64,000 bases of DNA from Ecytonucleospora hepatopenaei (taxonomy: Eukaryota; Microsporidia; Enterocytozoonidae): positions 124,001-188,000 of the forward strand of contig JAPMUG010000006.1 of assembly GCA_026692725.1 (NCBI GenBank). The letters are read 5' to 3'. Shown here piece by piece: positions 16,539 through 64,000 of this stretch. The notes under the pieces are model-generated. The model was given only the letters and a program-made list of their open reading frames with translations. It ran no database searches and was not told where the DNA came from. Each line of letters begins with the position of its first letter. Position 1 is the stretch's first letter. A program made the position numbers and the translations under genes.

Positions 16539-16544
16539 ATATAA

Positions 16545-17590
16545 AAGATAAGAAATGGAAAAAGAGAGAATAAAAAAAAAATAAAAGCAAACAAAAGAAA
16601 AAAATAGAAAAAAAAAAAACAAAAACAAACAACAATAGAACCCAAATAAAAACAAAAAACACAAACAAAAATAAAACCCCAACACAAACCTCCCCAGACC
16701 TCCTCCCCCGTGCCCCCCCCTCCCCTCACCCCCCCCCACCCATGTTCTCCAAGTCTCCCTCTGCCCCCCGCCACATACAACCCCTCCCCTCCCCCTCCAT
16801 GTGCTCCCCCCCTGTGTTTTTCACCTGATACTCCCACTTCTAGCGTGCCCAATAACCGCAACCCCTCCCCTCCCGTCCCTCCCCCCCCACCGAACCCATC
16901 CACTCATACCCACAAACACAACCCACACAACAATCACAACACACCCATCAACAACACCACCCACAGCCCCCACACAATACCACACCACACCACACACTGA
17001 CCCCACCCAACATCACCACAACGACTCACCCACACACCACGTCCAACACACCCAACCACACCACCACCGCCCTCACGCCACCCACAAGCCAGACACCCAC
17101 AAACTCACAAGTAAACAATCGCATATACAACCCCTTAAACCATAATATGTACCATTACAATCATGTCATATAAAACGCAACACACAAGTCGTAGCACCAT
17201 AACAGAACACACAAACACGTACCCAACACCACAGACTACTCAACACCACACAACAACAACATATACTACATTCCTCCAGATACACCCAACAAACACACAA
17301 CAATTCATCCCTGAACATCTACCAAAATCAAATCACACTCAAATCATATGAAATCGCACAACACACAACCCCCACACCACCATCAAACAACCCGCACTAA
17401 AGTGACCTCCACCATAGCTTAACAACTCACACCGACAACACCCCAAAAGCTGACCATGCAAACATGCCGCATCCTCAATCAAAACTGATACATCCACAAA
17501 CAGTCATCTCATTATGTCACCACTCACATTATTACGGTGTTAATATTCATCAAACAACAAAAAACCAACCTCTTATGCAAAATGCAAAAT
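16545..17590. other. C/A-only low-complexity block 1
   Basis: On the plus strand T and G almost vanish. The first 130 bases are nearly all A with some C (16550-16680), followed by a very C-rich core (16680-16900) and then a CA-rich stretch grading back to normal sequence near 17560. Short frames inside (for example 16710-17000) are composition artefacts. The block separates two WD40-like coding stretches. See the findings for the comparison with three similar blocks of opposite strand polarity at 58-63 kb. Confidence 0.8.
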
Positions 17591-17608
17591 GTCGCAGAAA
17601 ACCTGTGA

Positions 17609-20475: not shown

Positions 20476-20740
20476 TATAAACTATAAACTATAAACTATA
20501 AACTATAAACTATAAACTATAAACTATAAACTATAAACTATAAACTATAAACTATAAACTAAACTATAAACTATAAACTATAAACTATAAACTATAAACT
20601 ATAAACTATAAACTATAAACTAAACTATAAACTATAAACTATAAACTATAACTATAAACTATAAACTATAACTATAAACTATAAACTATAAACTATAACT
20701 ATAAACTATAAACTATAAACTATAAACTATAAACTATAAA
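20476..20740. repeat. TATAAAC heptamer satellite, about 37 copies
   Basis: A head-to-tail array of the 7-base unit TATAAAC has a few shortened (TATAAC) and fused (TATAAACTAAAC) units. It abuts the 5' end of the broken gene at 20071-20470. Confidence 0.95.
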
Positions 20741-55314: not shown

Positions 55315-56179
55315 ATTTTTTTATAAAACTTAGGGGCTACTTTTGATCTTTTAAAAACAAAAAAGTGATTTTTTTATCAAAAAAGGAAAAACCAAAAATA
55401 ATACAAAATTGAATAATAAACAAAAAAATGAAATTAAAGTTTTTTAAAATTTGATCACTTTTTTAAAGGGAAAATTTTTTAAAAAGTATTTGTTTGTAAA
55501 ACAAAAACAGTCTTTATTTATATTTTATGAACTTGAAAATAAAAATGTATTATGTTGAATATGGGTGTAGTTAAAAGTTTAGTTAGGTAAAATATGATTA
55601 TGTAGGGTTAAAAAAGTATGAGAATATTTATAAGGGCCATATTATACCAACATATTATATAAAAAAATTTTATAAAACTCACCACTACATTATTTTTTAT
55701 TAAATAAGTGTTTTTTATATTTTCAATATTTTCATTATCTTGTGTTTATTATTTTATTATTTTCTTGTTTTTTAAATTACAAATACTTGATAATAACTAA
55801 TTTTATATTTTTTATAGCTTTTGTTGCCATTAAAGAGCATTATAAAATTTTCCTTAAGTTTAGATTTTAGTTTTTGTAGTTCATATCGCAATTATTGTTT
55901 ACATATATTCAGGTTTATCTAAAAATACTGTTTAAACGATTTAAAATGCTAAATGAATAATAATTTAAAACCTACTTTAACATATTACAATAATTTTAAG
56001 GTTAAAAATATTTTTTATAACTTATAATTTATTTACACATGAGTAACATAATAATTGTTTAATAAAGACATAATTTAAAGTTTTAAACATATTTTGAAAA
56101 TATAAAGTTTCATTATATTTGAAACGATCATGTTTTGGTTTTGAGTAAATTTAAAATATTTAAAACAATGTTATAACAA
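55315..56179. other. Intergenic AT-rich region
   Basis: This 865-base gap separates two divergent genes. It contains TTTAAAAA-type stretches and a slightly more complex stretch at 55815-55905, but no open frame, tRNA box or repeat that I can assign. Confidence 0.5.
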
Positions 56180-58300
56180 ATGTCGTTTGCAGAATATTTA
56201 AAGAAACATGCAGATTATGAAAAATATGATAATAAGTACATACGGTATGATGTATTAACAAAACTTATTGCAAAAGAAGATATATCAAAACATGCTCAAA
56301 TTATCCAGGAAGAATTTAACAGAGTATTTGATTTTATAAATAGAGAAACAGAAAAATTTAAGGAAAAGCTGTGTTTATATGAAAAAGAGATAAAAAACGA
56401 AGAAAATGAACCTTTTGAAAAAAGCAAAAGTAAAAAACATATTTTATTAGATAAAAATAATTACACAATTATTTTCGAAGATTTGCAGGAGGAAATGAAA
56501 AGTTTTGCGGAGTTTATACGCATAAACATTATTGGGTTTAAAAAATTGATAAAACACAGTGATAAAAGAAGTGGTTTAAATCTTAAAGGTACATATAGCA
56601 GGATACTAGAACAAAAGTTAAATGCAATTGATCACTTAGATGCACTAATATATCAAAATTCAAAATTAAATTTAAAACTAAAAGATAAGTATATAGAGCA
56701 GGATAAAAAAGAATCAAATATAAATAATTTGGCATTTATAAGAAAAACAAATAAGTATTGGGTACATATGGATAATTTAATGGCACTGAAATTGGCGATT
56801 GTAAGACATTTACCTGTATATGTGTTTACAGAAAAGAAGCAAGAAAATGCAGGCAATATTTCACCATATGCAGCATGGAACCATAAAACACATGATACGT
56901 GTGTAAGTTCAGTATATTTTGACAATGAGGATCATGAACTGTATATGGGAAGGTTGCAGAAGAATGAGGGTGCAGAAGCAATAAGAATACGTTTTTATGG
57001 AGATCTTAAAAATGAAAACAATGTTGTTTTTGTAGAAAGAAAAAGACATTGTGAAAGTTGGACAGGGGAAAAATCAAAAAAATTGAGGTTTAAAATAAAA
57101 GAAAAATATGTGGATGATTTTATAACAGGAAAAGATATTTGGAAACATGTGAAAGAAATGAATGTTAAATCTAAAGAAGAAAAAACAAAAACTGACAATG
57201 AAGAAGAAGTAAAACTCCTTTATAATGAAATACAAAGTGCAATATTAAACCAAAATTTATTTCCATCAGTCAGGACATTTTATAAAAGAATAGCATTCCA
57301 GCTACCTAATGATAATGCAGTACGTATAAGTCTGGACACAAATTTATGTATGATAGACGAAAGAGCAAAGTACATAGAAAAAATCAGCAAAAATTTCAAA
57401 ATAAAAGAAAGTAATTTTACAAACAGGTTGTGGAGAAGAAGTGATTTTGTAAATACAGAATGGCCATTTAGAGCATTGGATGATAAAAATATAGTGAGAT
57501 TTCCCCATGCAATTTTAGAGGTAAAAACAACATCAGTGGATGAAACAAAGCCAAAATGGATAGAAAATATTTTAGCAAGTGCATACGTAGAACACGTACA
57601 TAAATTTAGCAAATTTTTACACGGAACAGCAATACTGCACATGGAACTGGAAAAAATTCCATATTGGTTGCCGCAAATGCGTACAGACATAAGAAAAGAT
57701 GAATTTTTGGCAATAGGAAGGAGAAAAGAGTTTAATGGAAATTACAATGTAAGTGAAGTAAGCAGCAAGACAAATAGTAAAGATACTAATTCAATTTCAA
57801 ACAGTATTTTGGATCACAGTGACCATAAAAATAACCTTAAATATTTAGAAAACAATACAACACGTATAAATATTCCAGTGAGGGTGGAACCTAAGGTATT
57901 TTTTGCAAATGAAAGGACTTTCCTGAGATGGGTGCAATTTTCAATATTTTTAGGAGGATTAGGAACAGCAATGTTAGGATTAGAAAGTTTTAGGTCAAAT
58001 GTTTGTGGAGCAATAATGGTATTGTTAGCAATATTATTTGCATGTTATGCACTGCATTTATTTGCATGGAGGGCCGAAATCAATAGAGATATTAGAGAGC
58101 CGGGTCCATTGGATGATGGTATTTGGTACAGTGGTGGCAGGTGTGGTTGGGGGGGGGGGGCGCTGGTTGGGGGGCTCTGGGTGGGGGTTTTGGCAATGGT
58201 TGGGTGGCATTTTGTGGGGTGTATGGTTTGTTTGTTGTTGTGGGGTCGGTGGGGGGGGTTGGTTGGGTTTGTTTTGTGGGGGGGATGTTGGGTTTGGTGA
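56180..58300 (+). CDS. VTC4: VTC4-type polyphosphate polymerase, C-terminus lost in a G/T block
   Basis: The protein has an SPX domain (about 1-150: MSFAEYLKKHADYEKYDNKY), a VTC catalytic tunnel domain (about 190-510: SSVYFDNEDHELYMGRLQK, IRIRFYG, VFVERKRH, FPHAILEVKT), and a DUF202 membrane part from about 573 (FFANERTFLRWVQF). It makes polyphosphate from ATP, in yeast at the vacuole. Genuine sequence ends at GPLDD near residue 646 (nt 58118), where family members read GPYDDR-GP before the last membrane helix. The last 60 residues of the frame are translation of a G/T-only block. In another frame just inside the block FGTVVAGVV resembles the expected continuation. Confidence 0.88.
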   Translation: MSFAEYLKKHADYEKYDNKYIRYDVLTKLIAKEDISKHAQIIQEEFNRVFDFINRETEKFKEKLCLYEKEIKNEENEPFEKSKSKKHILLDKNNYTIIFEDLQEEMKSFAEFIRINIIGFKKLIKHSDKRSGLNLKGTYSRILEQKLNAIDHLDALIYQNSKLNLKLKDKYIEQDKKESNINNLAFIRKTNKYWVHMDNLMALKLAIVRHLPVYVFTEKKQENAGNISPYAAWNHKTHDTCVSSVYFDNEDHELYMGRLQKNEGAEAIRIRFYGDLKNENNVVFVERKRHCESWTGEKSKKLRFKIKEKYVDDFITGKDIWKHVKEMNVKSKEEKTKTDNEEEVKLLYNEIQSAILNQNLFPSVRTFYKRIAFQLPNDNAVRISLDTNLCMIDERAKYIEKISKNFKIKESNFTNRLWRRSDFVNTEWPFRALDDKNIVRFPHAILEVKTTSVDETKPKWIENILASAYVEHVHKFSKFLHGTAILHMELEKIPYWLPQMRTDIRKDEFLAIGRRKEFNGNYNVSEVSSKTNSKDTNSISNSILDHSDHKNNLKYLENNTTRINIPVRVEPKVFFANERTFLRWVQFSIFLGGLGTAMLGLESFRSNVCGAIMVLLAILFACYALHLFAWRAEINRDIREPGPLDDGIWYSGGRCGWGGGALVGGLWVGVLAMVGWHFVGCMVCLLLWGRWGGLVGFVLWGGCWVW

Positions 58301-58545
58301 CTTGGGAGGGTGGGTTGTGTGGTGTGTAGGTGTGGGTGGATGGAGTTGGAGGGGGCGTATGGGGAGTGATGTGGGGGGTTGGGATGGGCACTTTTTGTGG
58401 GTGTGGGCGGGGGACTGGGAGTAGGTAGGGAGTGGGGGTGGGTTGTTTTTGTTGTTTTTTTGGGTTTTAGATGGTGTGTTGGGTGTTAGGTGTTGTGTGT
58501 GTGTATTCGTGGTGTGGTGTATTTTTTGGGTTCTTGGTTACTGTT
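58120..58545. other. G/T-only low-complexity block 2
   Basis: The plus strand is almost free of A and C, with G runs up to 12 (58149-58160). The block begins within the VTC4 tail and ends about 45 bases before the acyl-CoA synthetase stop. Frames inside it are composition artefacts. G-quadruplex potential is high on the plus strand. Confidence 0.85.
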
Positions 58546-58589
58546 ATAAAAATATTTTCAAGGTTAAAAAAACAAAAATTTATTTCATT

Positions 58590-60112
58590 TTACTTTTTAA
58601 GTCTACTTTCTATTTCTTCTTTAAAATAATCATATAATTTACCTCTTCTTTTCTTCATGGATGGTGTTATAAGTTCACCATTTTCTAATTCCATAAATGG
58701 TGTATTTATAACATATACAGCTTTAGGTATTTCATATTTTGTTATTTTCCTTATCTGTGCCAATTGCATTCCTTTGTCACGAATGTATTTTAACATTTTA
58801 TCCTCTTCCTGCCATTCCTTTTTAGATGATACTACAACTGCACAAAGACTATCTGAATCACGTGTACCTGTTATGTAAATATCTTCTATACAACCACCTA
58901 CAAAACAATTTTCAACATGTTCAGGTACTATATACTCTCCATAACTGGTTTTAAACATTTCTTTAACTCTACCTACGCAATAAAATCTATCATTTTCAAA
59001 CTTAAAAACATCTCCTGTTTTAAGCCATTTCTCTCCATCGATTTCTTCCCACAACTCTTCTGTTTTTTCAGGCTGTTTGAAGTAACCAGAAGTTAAGGAT
59101 TTTCCTGACATTAGCAGTTCTCCATAATTTTCATATGGAAAGCTTTCAACTGGTTTTAATCTTAGTTTACAAGATGTAAATGAAATGCCTACATTATCCA
59201 TAGCAATATCAGAAATTGGTTGTACTATATTTGCAGCTAACCCTTCTGTCATTCCGTATCCCTGAAAAATCTTCATGCATAAAGTAGACTGTAGAAATTC
59301 AACAGTATTAGGATTTATAGATGCACCACCAGTCAAGCAATACTTTAGATTACCGCCAAACTTTTTACTTACTTTATTAAAGACCAATTTATCAACAAGC
59401 CAACTTTTTACATTTCCCTTTCTAACACACTTTCTTTTCCACCATAAACAAACCTTAAATAAAAATTTCTTAATAAAATTCAAATTAGAGACAGTTTCAT
59501 TGATTCTTTCTTCAAATAGATTTAAAACACGTGGAACCGCTGCTATAAAATCAGGCTGTGCTATTTCATAATCCATTTGAAGCATTTTTGGATTTCCTCT
59601 AAAAAACACAATTCTACCCCCTGTAGACATAACAACCGTAAAACATATTCTTTCAAAAACATGAGCCAATGGTAAATATGACAAATAGGTGACACTTTCT
59701 GATGGGGGAAATAAATTAGCAGCACTAACTATTTTATATCCACAAATATGGATGCAAAAGGCACTGTGTTTTAAAACAACTCCTTTTGGAGTACCTGAAG
59801 TACCACTTGTATAGCAAATGGTGGCAGTATCGCTTCCTTTAGGTCTTCTATCTAGCTCTATATCTTCACTATCTTCATCATAGTTCTTTTCTAGTAAATC
59901 ATCAAAAAACATAACCTTAATATTTATTTCCTCGTATAATTTTCTAACATTTTCATCCCTGTCAAATAAAACAATTTTTTCTAATGAAAAAATATTTTGG
60001 TTATTTAAATCATTATCTCTTTTTAAAACAGTCTCATACAGATTATTAGCTTTTTGAGAAGAAGCAAATAATATCTTCATTTCTGTTTCCTTTAAAACAT
60101 ATTCCAGTGCAC
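58590..60112 (-). CDS. Long-chain acyl-CoA synthetase, N-terminus lost in a G/T block
   Basis: The ANL-family enzyme activates fatty acids to acyl-CoA. TATICYTSGTSGTPKG is the AMP-binding P-loop, and SYLPLAHVFERI, FQGYGMTEG, WLKTGDV and MKTSYGEYI-like FKTSYGEYIVPEHVEN follow in the usual order. The first ATG in frame (60080) is internal: coding continues upstream as LEYVLKET up to about 60112, then TLQPS matches the TLGPS expected of the family before sequence dissolves into block 3. About 150 N-terminal residues are missing. The product from 60080 would be 496 residues. Confidence 0.9.
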
Positions 60113-61275
60113 TGGGTTGGAGGGTAGTGGTAGTGGTGGTTCTTGTTGGGCTCTGGGTCAGATGCCTGCACAGTGGCTACGAGTGCACATGTTGTCCCTT
60201 GTCGGGGTCGGATTAGTTGGCCTTGGTGTTCGGGGGACGTGGGCCGCGGGTTTTTGTTTTGTATGCGTGGGGGGGTTTGGGGAGTGTTTCTGAGGCGGGG
60301 GGGTGGGTAGGTTACTAGGGCTGGGGGTGTTCTCCTTATTAGGTATGGTTGGGTGGGAGTAGGTGGGTTGGCCGATCAGCATTTAACATTTCCATAGTAG
60401 CGGGACTAGGTTGATGTGGGTGTTTCAAGGATGAGTCAAGGGGCATTTACTGGTTTGGGGAAGTTTCTCATGGGGGTTAGGGGTCCAGTAAGGGGAGATG
60501 CATTTAATAATGGGATTAGAGGGTAAATGGTTTGTTTATCATATTATAAGGATTATGTTATATGTTAAGTTGCGGATTTTTACGAGATTTAATGTCTGTA
60601 ATTATATATTCTTACACACTTGTGGTGGTAGTGACGCGGTTTGTTGGTTAGGTGTGGGTTGGGGGGATTGTATTGGGTTTTTTTGTGTGTGTTTTGGGTT
60701 TTTAAGTAGGAAACACTTAGACTAGGGTTGGGTTTGGGTTGTATACTTGTGGGTTGCTGTGGGGGGTCTTATGTGGGTTTGAGGTGGGGGGGGTTGGTCA
60801 TAGTAGGGGGGTTTGTTATTTATTGAGGTGTGGTTATTAGTTTCTGATGTTTATTTGTTTTGTTTTGGTGGGGGGTGGGTTTTGGTTGGGGGGGTTTTGT
60901 GGTTTGTGTGTGTGGCGGTTTGTGTTAGGGGATTTTGGGTTGATGAGGGGGTTGAGAGTGGGGTGGGGGGTTGATAGGGGCACTCGGTGTTAGATTATGA
61001 CTTGATGTGGGGGTGGATTGGTGGCATTTACTGTTATGGTACTGGGGGTGGTATGTTATTGCTGTTGAGGGTTCACGTTCTAATGATCATGCTTTGTGTA
61101 TGGTTTTGGGTTATGTTTGTTTGTCACATGTAATGGCAGTGTTAGTTGGTTAGTGGCACAGGTGTGTGTCTGTGGGCTATTTGGTATTTTGTGAGGGCGT
61201 GGGCGGGGGGAGGTGCGTTTTGTTGCGTGTGGCTGCGTGTTGCTTGGGGGGAGTTGAGTTCTTGGAGGAAAGGGA
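60108..61275. other. G/T-only low-complexity block 3
   Basis: Over 1.1 kb the plus strand is dominated by G and T, with patches near 60370-60420 and 60490-60620 closer to normal composition. It replaces the 5' end of the acyl-CoA synthetase gene. Short frames here (60158-60382, 60498-60725) have no support. It grades back to AT-rich sequence near 61280. Confidence 0.85.
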
Positions 61276-61654
61276 TTTTTACTTTTGTATTTAGCATAAA
61301 TTTTTATGCATTATAAACAAATGTTTTATTAAACTAACTTTCTTATTACATTTAAATATCAATGCACAACAATAAATCACTACTATATAATAAAGATATA
61401 TTAAAATATTATCATGTAATAATTAAAATACAATACGTAAACAAAAACTGATATTAAACAAAAATGTAAAGATTAAATTTTTAAGGTTTATTCTTAATAT
61501 TTTTATATAGTTTTTAACTTAATAAGTGAAATAGAAACATATTTTTTGACATCAATTTTAAAATCACAAAAAACAAACATAAAATGAATCAAACAATGAT
61601 TTAATAATGTTCAATGGAATTTACTATATATTTATAAATCACATACGATTTATA
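61276..61654. other. AT-rich spacer
   Basis: Ordinary AT-rich DNA lies between block 3 and the broken PARG-like gene. No gene is recognised. Confidence 0.5.
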
Positions 61655-62416
61655 ATGCCAGCAAGTTTTTTATCAAATGGTACTGAAAAATACAAAGGAG
61701 ATAAAATAGATTAAATAGATAAAGATAAGCTTAAAGACAATTTTTTAGCAGATGCATTAGATTATGATAAAACACATAATACAGGTACAGTTAAATCTAT
61801 AATCATAGATGTTATTACAAATAAAAGAAATATTTTGTATAAAAAGACCATTTAATAGGGTAACACAGTCACATGATTCAATATTTTCACTTTTTGATTT
61901 ATTACACAATACAGGTGAAGAAGTAGCAATAGTAGCAGCAGCCAATGCCATTTATGTAGGTGGTGGATATACTGTTTTTAGGTCATGTAGAGATGGAAAA
62001 GGAACACAAGAAGAAGCATTAATGGTGTAGTACATAAATTATCAGAGGCAAATTTAACATTAGCAATAAAAGACAGAAATGGTGAATATTACAAAGATAA
62101 TAAAGGTAGAATAAAATACAATAATGAAAAATTAAAAGATAAAATATGGCTATCAGAAAAGTTAGGATTGAAAGTACCATTGGATACTGTAATGGGGTAT
62201 AGGTACAATAGTAGAAATTGTAAATTTCTAAGTGATTATATTTTATTATGTTATTATGATAAAAAGTTTAAAATCAAGGAATATAAAGAAACATCTAAAA
62301 AAGTAAGTGTATACTCAATGGCAGCATTTGATGCAAGAAATGCTAAACATGTAGATTATGATAGATTATACACTGATGTAAACAATAAGCTTATAACATG
62401 TTTGTTAGATGCTTGA
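61655..62416 (+). pseudogene. Broken PARG-like (microbial poly-ADP-ribose glycohydrolase type) gene
   Basis: Three frame pieces together read as one protein. The middle carries EEVAIVAAANAIYVGGGYT followed after ten residues by GTQEEALMV, matching the GGG-x-QEE catalytic signature of microbial-type PARG/TIGR02452 proteins. The last piece (VVHKLSEANLTLAI ... VYSMAAFDARN) ends at 62416. Lesions: an in-frame TAA at 61712-61714, a frame change at an A5 run near 61840, and another near 62026. The family removes ADP-ribose chains. It lies between two G/T blocks, so decay and poor sequence quality are both possible. Confidence 0.5.
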
Positions 62417-62429
62417 ATATGTTGTGAAC

Positions 62430-63440
62430 TATTAACATTGCTAGGTTTGTCTGGACACTGGATTCTGGGGGGTTGGCAAAGGGTGTTTTACTCTGTTGGT
62501 GTTACACTGGATTTTTGTGATGCGTTTATGGTACACTGGGGATGGTTGTATCGGAGCGTGATGGGTGGGTGGGTGGGGTGCTGATCAGATTTTGGTAAGG
62601 TTGTTTTGTTGTATGTTATGGTTTGGTATAGCGTTGGTGTTTGTGGATAAGTCGTGGTGTGGGTATTGGGTGGAGTTGCGGGTGGGTGAACGTTTTTGGG
62701 GTTAAGGGGGTTGTGTTTGTGTGTTTGGGGGTAGTTTGGTTTCTTTTTCACACAGGTGGTGGGGTTGGGGGTTGGTTGTGTTTACAGATATGGAAGGTGG
62801 AATATAAGTGACGTGGATAGTCTGGAGTATGGTTTCTTGTCTTGTGTGTTGGCCGGGATTATTTATTTCTCAGTGGGGTTGTGTGTGGGGTGGTTTTGCG
62901 GGATTTTAATTCGATTGGGTGTAGGTGGTCAGAAATCATAATATTATATTTAATGATTCAATGATCTTAAAAATTATTCACGTTATCAGGTGTGAAACCC
63001 CCAACAACCCTCACACCGAAAACTAACCTCATCTGGTAGTAATGTAGTATGTTTTGGTGCAATGGTATGTCTGGGGTAGATAGCTGGCGTTTTTTGGTCC
63101 TAGCGGGATCAGGTTTTGATTAGGGATGGAAGGTGTTGGTACTGGGGTGGGTTGGGTTAGGGATTATTGGCGGGGTTTTGGGGGTTGTTAGTTACGGCGA
63201 TTTATTGTAGAATGTAATTTTAAAGTTTTTATGTTTTGTAGCACTCTAATTTTTTTACATTGGATAAATTTAACTGGTTTGGATTCTGTTTGTTGGGATT
63301 GGGATTATAGGCTCAAGGTTTTTGTCTGTGTGGTTTGTCTTTTTGGGGTGGTTTTTGGAGGAGGGGTGCATTTGTAGGGGGGTTTTGTTTTATTTTTCGT
63401 TTAACTTCGGGCTTTTTTTCTTTGATAAATTTATTTTTTT
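62430..63440. other. G/T-only block 4 overlying the 5' half of an ABC transporter gene
   Basis: The plus strand is G/T-dominated with near-normal islands at 62930-63060 and 63195-63290. Within it GGTCCTAGCGGGATCAGGT (63096-63114) gives the Walker A core GPSGSG if one G is ignored. YVL-stop-HSNFFTLDKF (63230-63271) resembles the Q-loop YV-Q-D region of ABCG proteins, at the right distance of about 45 codons. So this block is a degraded version of the ABC gene's own sequence. Confidence 0.7.
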
Positions 63441-63441
63441 T

Positions 63442-64000
63442 TTTTCTTTTTTTTTTAGCTTAAGGACCAAAAATAAAAAAACAAAGGTCAAAAATCTAAG
63501 TGGTGGTGAAAGAACAAGACTTTATGTTGCTGTTGAATTTTTAAAAAACACACAAGTTTTTATTTTAGACGAACCAACTTCTGGTCTTGACAGTTACAAT
63601 GCAGAAATGGTTATAATGTTTTTAAAAAAACTGGTAAAAAAGTTTAATAAGATAATGGTGGTTTCAATACACCAACCAAGTTTTAAGCTTATAGAATATT
63701 TTGATAAAATTTTATTGTTTTCAGAAGGAAGAGCTGTATTTGAAGGAAAGGTGAGTGAGTGTATAGATTTTTTTGAAATTCTTGGACATAAACTTCCTAT
63801 AAATACAAATCCAATAGATTTTTTTATAGAGAAATTAGCAACATGTAAAATTGAAAATAAAAAAGAATCAAATAATTTAACAGAAAATTATAATAACATT
63901 AATACAAATGTTAATAATAAGGTCAAGATAAAAAATAAAGCCAATAAAAAAGAAATAGTTAAATCATTTAGCTTTTTAAGTTTATTTTATAGAAATATTA
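63442..64000 (+). CDS. ABCG (white-type) transporter, partial at both ends
   Basis: The readable frame contains the ABC signature NLSGGERTR, Walker B VFILDEPTSGLDS, the H-loop VVSIHQPS, and then FEGKVSECIDFFEILGHKLP with the NPIDFFIE segment typical of ABCG half transporters. An Asn-rich insert and the start of the membrane part (SFSFLSLFYRNI) follow, and the gene runs off the window. No ATG is available; the nucleotide-binding start is dissolved in block 4. It is likely a plasma-membrane lipid or drug exporter or a nutrient transporter; the substrate is unknown. Confidence 0.88.

Follow-up and report, generated by a model that had tools for sequence, protein, structure and literature searches.

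What could have written three long runs of G and T into three genes of an AT-rich microsporidian genome? The question arose in a window of 64,000 bp (the whole stretch of DNA analysed), which comprises bases 124001–188000 of contig C10 (198,216 bp) in a 3.09 Mb assembly of 13 contigs. An earlier note had described G/T blocks lying in a VTC4 gene, an acyl-CoA synthetase gene and an ABCG transporter gene near the right end of this window, and had proposed either a technical fault, which was to be considered first, or a strand-asymmetric hypermutation process. We concluded, with a probability of roughly 93%, that the blocks are a base-calling artefact and not biological hypermutation, because the letters of ordinary genes are mostly read one step low in them (C as A, A as T, T as G). 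Of the two proposed options, the evidence supports the technical one.

The comparison was made with a clean copy of the affected DNA on the same contig. A probe taken from the VTC gene hit an inverted copy at C10:14489–15567, and the left end of C10 carried the copied segment in ordinary four-letter DNA on the opposite strand. This left-end copy matched window positions 56568–58119, 58542–60127, 61275–62412 and 63452–64000 at 97.9–99.5% identity, and the match between the two contig ends included 1048 bp at 100%. The segment of ~8 kb (window 56130–64000) is thus present in inverted orientation at both ends of C10, 100% identical over 1 kb at best, and looks like an ordinary subtelomeric duplication. 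An unshifted stretch separates the second and third blocks (61275–62403, no strand assigned). When 61275–62412 was compared with the left-end copy, 22 substitutions of mixed types were seen, only 6 of them of the one-step type described below; differences of this kind make the right end of C10 look like a true second locus distinct from the left-end copy.

Blocks 1 (58120–58541), 2 (60128–61274) and 3 (62413–63451) contained 88%, 77% and 74% G+T, versus 55%, 51% and 47% in the clean copy, which bears out that three G/T-rich blocks exist in the assembly. Their description as nearly devoid of A and C suits block 1 (12% A+C) and fits blocks 2 and 3 less well (23% and 26%). Including their margins, and all on the plus strand, block 1 (58090–58541) covers the tail of the VTC-domain gene and the DNA behind it, read one step down; block 2 (60122–61274) covers the 5' end of the acyl-CoA synthetase gene, a minus-strand gene, with its upstream DNA; and block 3 (62404–63451) covers the 5' part of the ABC transporter gene with its upstream DNA, the latter two being partly shifted. 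The blocks are 422, 1147 and 1039 bases long, versus 415, 1057 and 865 in the copy, and so exceed it by 7, 90 and 174 bases. Their edges were softer than the earlier note had described. The first shifted calls appeared at ~58092, 60122 and 62404, and faithful calls reappeared inside blocks 2 and 3, where they equalled or outnumbered shifted calls around 60521–60640, 62921–63040 and 63201–63280. At the left edge of block 1, one-step mismatches started at 58092 and grew denser up to 58111; the right edge lay at ~58541. Both flanks of every block aligned to the clean copy, which has 415, 1057 and 865 four-letter bases at the same places, and we therefore concluded that the blocks replace the genes in place and do not interrupt them, as had been claimed.

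To characterize the replacement, all 256 base rewritings of the clean copy were aligned to each block, and the mean of four shuffles was subtracted. The ladder map (A>T, C>A, G>G, T>G) ranked 1st, 2nd and 2nd of 256 in blocks 1, 2 and 3, and its twin in which C is kept ranked 2nd, 1st and 1st; these two maps took the top two places in all three blocks. Also tried were the identity map, A>G with C>G, and A>T with C>G and T>G, all of which scored below the ladder in the three blocks. In block 1 the map was close to deterministic: A was read as T in 147/154 cases, T as G in 176/189 and C as A in 25/34 (C kept in 8/34), and G was kept in 38/38. The remaining classes were nearly empty (C>G 1/34, T kept 3/189, A>G 0/154, C>T 0/34), giving a single-letter regularity of 93–95% for A and T. 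Blocks 2 and 3 were mixtures with correct calls, in which most of the non-shifted letters were unchanged. The counts were 305/402 for A>T, 324/428 for T>G and 42/120 for C>A in block 2, and 273/377, 200/298 and 34/85, respectively, in block 3. Over blocks and flanks together, in an alignment fitted to the ladder, 1540 of the 1586 changed pairs were one step down, and G stayed G in 300/304 with a single G missing. A one-step rule, whereby each base is called as itself or as the next lower and the lowest is unchanged, held in the three blocks.

Because the counts for each block came from an alignment begun at the ladder map, block 1 was refitted from other starts. The start at the two-colour map considered below and two of three random starts converged on the ladder with a score of ~266, and the identity, deamination and A>G/C>G starts, together with the third random start, became stuck at 0.4–5.3. 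Control fits gave −9.8 to −5.5 for three shuffled copies, 0.4–3.0 for three unrelated clean segments and −9.5 for the reverse-complemented copy.

The same shift was observed in a telomere. TTAG/TTTAG telomeres are found at many contig ends of the assembly, and at the end of contig C2 the array passes through TTTG- and GTTG-like units into GGTG/GGGTG-like text over ~500 bases (~830–1340 of the end sequence, L029). This text lasts until ~1875, and TTAG is back within ~80 bases. Counted per 60 bases, A fell from 13 through 8, 5 and 2 to 0 and G rose from 16 to 43–45, while T held steady at 31–33 across four bins and then went down to 15–17; the order of change was A>T first, then T>G. The plateau (1291–1875) consisted of 73% G and 27% T, versus 77% and 23% predicted from the clean array shifted one step. 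The miscalling is independent of the gene affected, as a known TTAG repeat was affected too. Among the tracts outside the window, this telomere tract is the one covered by a comparison with expected sequence.

We propose the following explanation. The underlying DNA is very probably normal microsporidian sequence, rich in A and T and nearly identical to its subtelomeric counterpart at the left end of C10, and the signal model would have been out of calibration in the read, or the few reads, behind the consensus. On an intensity ladder that descends from C through A and T to G, each base would then be called one level too low, except that G, already the lowest, would stay G; in an AT-rich genome such a one-step shift would convert A+T into T+G. 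That the map acts letter by letter suits an instrument in which every base gives one pulse, scored along a single axis of intensity. The PacBio Sequel II generation is such a single-channel instrument and probably has the amplitude order C > A > T > G, which our literature search neither confirmed nor denied, as no statement of it was found. We infer that the instrument was of this single-channel type, that the fault arose where the base-caller normalises amplitude, and that coverage was low enough for a few bad reads to enter the consensus. We consider it slightly better than an even chance that the blocks exemplify a general fault in the base-calling of single-channel long reads, one that is little described and can be partly inverted. 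If so, public assemblies would hold decodable ciphertext, mainly at telomeres and in other low-coverage places, that could be mistaken for DNA rich in G and T, for unusual repeats or for novel genes.

Several results weigh against this explanation. C was kept in 74/120 cases in block 2 and 48/85 in block 3. A homologue-free test, based on an order-4 Markov model of clean same-contig DNA, did not single out the ladder, placing it 2nd for block 1, 3rd for the central part of block 2 and 8th for part of block 3; in a clean control the identity map ranked 1st. Across blocks and flanks, 308 inserted and 33 deleted letters are unexplained by the map. Within block 3, an A/C-rich patch at ~62992–63035 fits neither the ladder nor an upward shift (rank 184/256 for the latter), and a T-rich insertion at ~63361–63440 departs from the map. 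In the C2 plateau the units were 3.7 letters long versus 4.3 predicted, with shorter runs of G, so that some letters must have dropped out too. Multi-pass consensus, moreover, should average such a fault out. Lastly, plain loss of light should drop G pulses, yet only one G of 304 was missing; because G was hardly lost, wrong normalisation is likelier than light loss.

Of the other explanations, the one that survives best is that a wrongly scaled nanopore signal wrote the G/T text, which we regard as unlikely. Scaling drift along one long molecule could explain the gradual onset and sudden end, and biased telomere miscalls are known for nanopore sequencing. However, nanopore current depends on several neighbouring bases, which sits poorly with the single-letter regularity of A and T in block 1. 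Very unlikely is a two-colour short-read run in which one signal channel failed, one of the faults named in the earlier note; such a failure would give A>T and C>G and leave T and G as they are. It has A>T in common with the observed map, and the block 1 refit begun at the two-colour map moved to the ladder, not back. Its map nevertheless ranked only 80th, 155th and 55th of 256 in the three blocks; T, which it leaves unchanged, was read as G in 176/189 cases in block 1 and kept in 3, and C became G only once in 34. The blocks, at 0.4–1.1 kb, are also longer than a short read. Poor consensus alone, which had been offered as another technical cause, would not yield a fixed letter-for-letter map.

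Real strand-asymmetric hypermutation, for example by adenine and cytosine deamination on one strand, would account for genes overwritten in place and for one strand looking uniform, yet we find it hardly credible. The corresponding map (A>G with C>T) ranked 241st, 254th and 162nd of 256, and neither change was seen in block 1 (0/154 and 0/34). Such a process would need A>T, T>G and C>A together, with G spared, at ~90% of block 1 sites, and the same change is seen in the TTAG telomere. To our knowledge, no mutational process produces this map, and it matches no known deaminase or repair process. The weakest idea, that foreign or repetitive G/T-rich DNA was inserted into the genes, can draw on the 7, 90 and 174 extra bases and is scarcely worth entertaining, as the copy sequence is replaced over nearly equal length and is recoverable under the map.

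The genes beneath the blocks can be named from their intact parts. The VTC-domain gene (VTC4-like; 56177–58089, plus strand) matched PF09359 (E = 1.5e-72) and PF02656 (E = 2.6e-11) on 56177–58087. The long-chain acyl-CoA synthetase gene (58593–60121, minus strand) matched PF00501 (E = 1.7e-44) and, at a rounded 100% over the query, the 626-aa protein P0001 from another assembly, from which a few residues differ despite the rounding. The ABC transporter gene (63452–64000, plus strand), which runs past the window end, matched PF19055 (E = 2.1e-9) and PF00005 (E = 3.9e-7) on 63448–63999. Of these Pfam models, PF09359 stands for the VTC domain, PF00501 for AMP-binding enzymes, and PF00005 and PF19055 for ABC transporters. 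The reported relics of gene sequence inside the blocks fared unevenly. Those at ~63096 (P-loop-like) and ~63230 lie in partly faithful patches and align with the clean copy. Where TLQPS was noted, the clean copy and P0001 read TFQPS, one base having been miscalled at 60122. FGTVVAGV, in contrast, is due to chance, because 27 informative letters there are shifted and none is faithful. The blocks also create open frames, such as one of 159 aa at 58058–58537 on the minus strand.

The left-end copy encodes a 626-residue acyl-CoA synthetase that is identical to P0001 at 626/626 positions. For the acyl-CoA synthetase, identity was 57% to that of Enterospora canceri and 55% to that of Nucleospora cyclopteri. 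On the basis of these identities and the TTAG/TTTAG telomeres, the source genome is a microsporidian close to Enterocytozoonidae. Two published papers report TTAG repeats in members of the Enterocytozoonida, one in Glugoides intestinalis (PMC12449221), the other in Microsporidia sp. MB (PMC13174016).

A mirror-image block, absent from the earlier finding, lies at ~16540–17600 of the window, between two N-rich open frames and 58 kb from the nearest contig end. It is A/C-rich on the plus strand and G/T-rich on the minus strand, to which it is assigned, and hence opposite in orientation to the three blocks. On its minus strand the homologue-free test placed the ladder 3rd (16560–17140) and 11th (17141–17600) of 256. 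A search for a second copy of the gene beside this block returned, in the best 40 of 93 candidates (117 matches), only its own locus as near-identical, the next best match being 67%. The block is consistent with a minus-strand occurrence of the miscalling, which probably produced it. Near it, a short TAAACTA-like unit forms a tandem array at 20480–20740.

Similar-looking tracts were found in the starts of 3/13 contigs (C1, C2 and C4) and in 1/11 contig ends examined (C2; the sample took in all ends but those of C12 and C13), some of them beside stretches given as N. No such tract was found in C10:1–106000 or C10:188001–198000. At the start of C1 (L008, 2500–7500), ~5 kb of the minus strand mixes G/T-rich text with four-letter sequence. 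C2 has a sharp-edged A/C tract (L009, 9421–9980), GGGT-like on the other strand and flanked by ordinary AT-rich DNA. The starts of C2 (L009, 1–2000) and C13 (L019, 1–3000) each carry telomere repeats of the G strand and, after them, repeats of the C strand; these inverted arrays look like a fold-back artefact of the end read. The end of C4 (L031) is without telomere and carries a ~30-base unit in tandem.

Once the blocks are read as miscalled text, an eye-catching example of hypermutation proves spurious. None of the three genes at the right end of C10 (VTC, acyl-CoA synthetase, ABC transporter) is to be taken for a broken one, and G/T or A/C tracts close to telomeres on C1, C2 and C4 deserve doubt. 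Open frames made by such blocks could enter protein databases. A simple test is available for suspicious G/T-only or A/C-only blocks, namely to rewrite a clean copy by A>T, T>G and C>A and to compare the block with the result.

Among the papers listed by a literature search, none was found to describe such blocks or such a fault. The closest known systems share some features with the blocks and differ in others. Deaminase hypermutation and repeat-induced point mutation also replace bases in place in a regular, strand-related manner, but they produce transitions, whereas here the changes are mainly A>T, T>G and C>A. Two-colour Illumina chemistry is prone to poly-G and channel-loss errors, which are alike in that a fading signal gives darker bases, including A>T; there, however, C and T should become G or remain unchanged, whereas here C becomes A or is kept and T becomes G. 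Nanopore miscalling of telomeres likewise turns one regular repeat into another, whereas here the same single-letter map is also found in unique genes and its onset is gradual. In single-channel single-molecule real-time sequencing of the PacBio Sequel II type, an error of one level gives this very map if the amplitude order is C > A > T > G.

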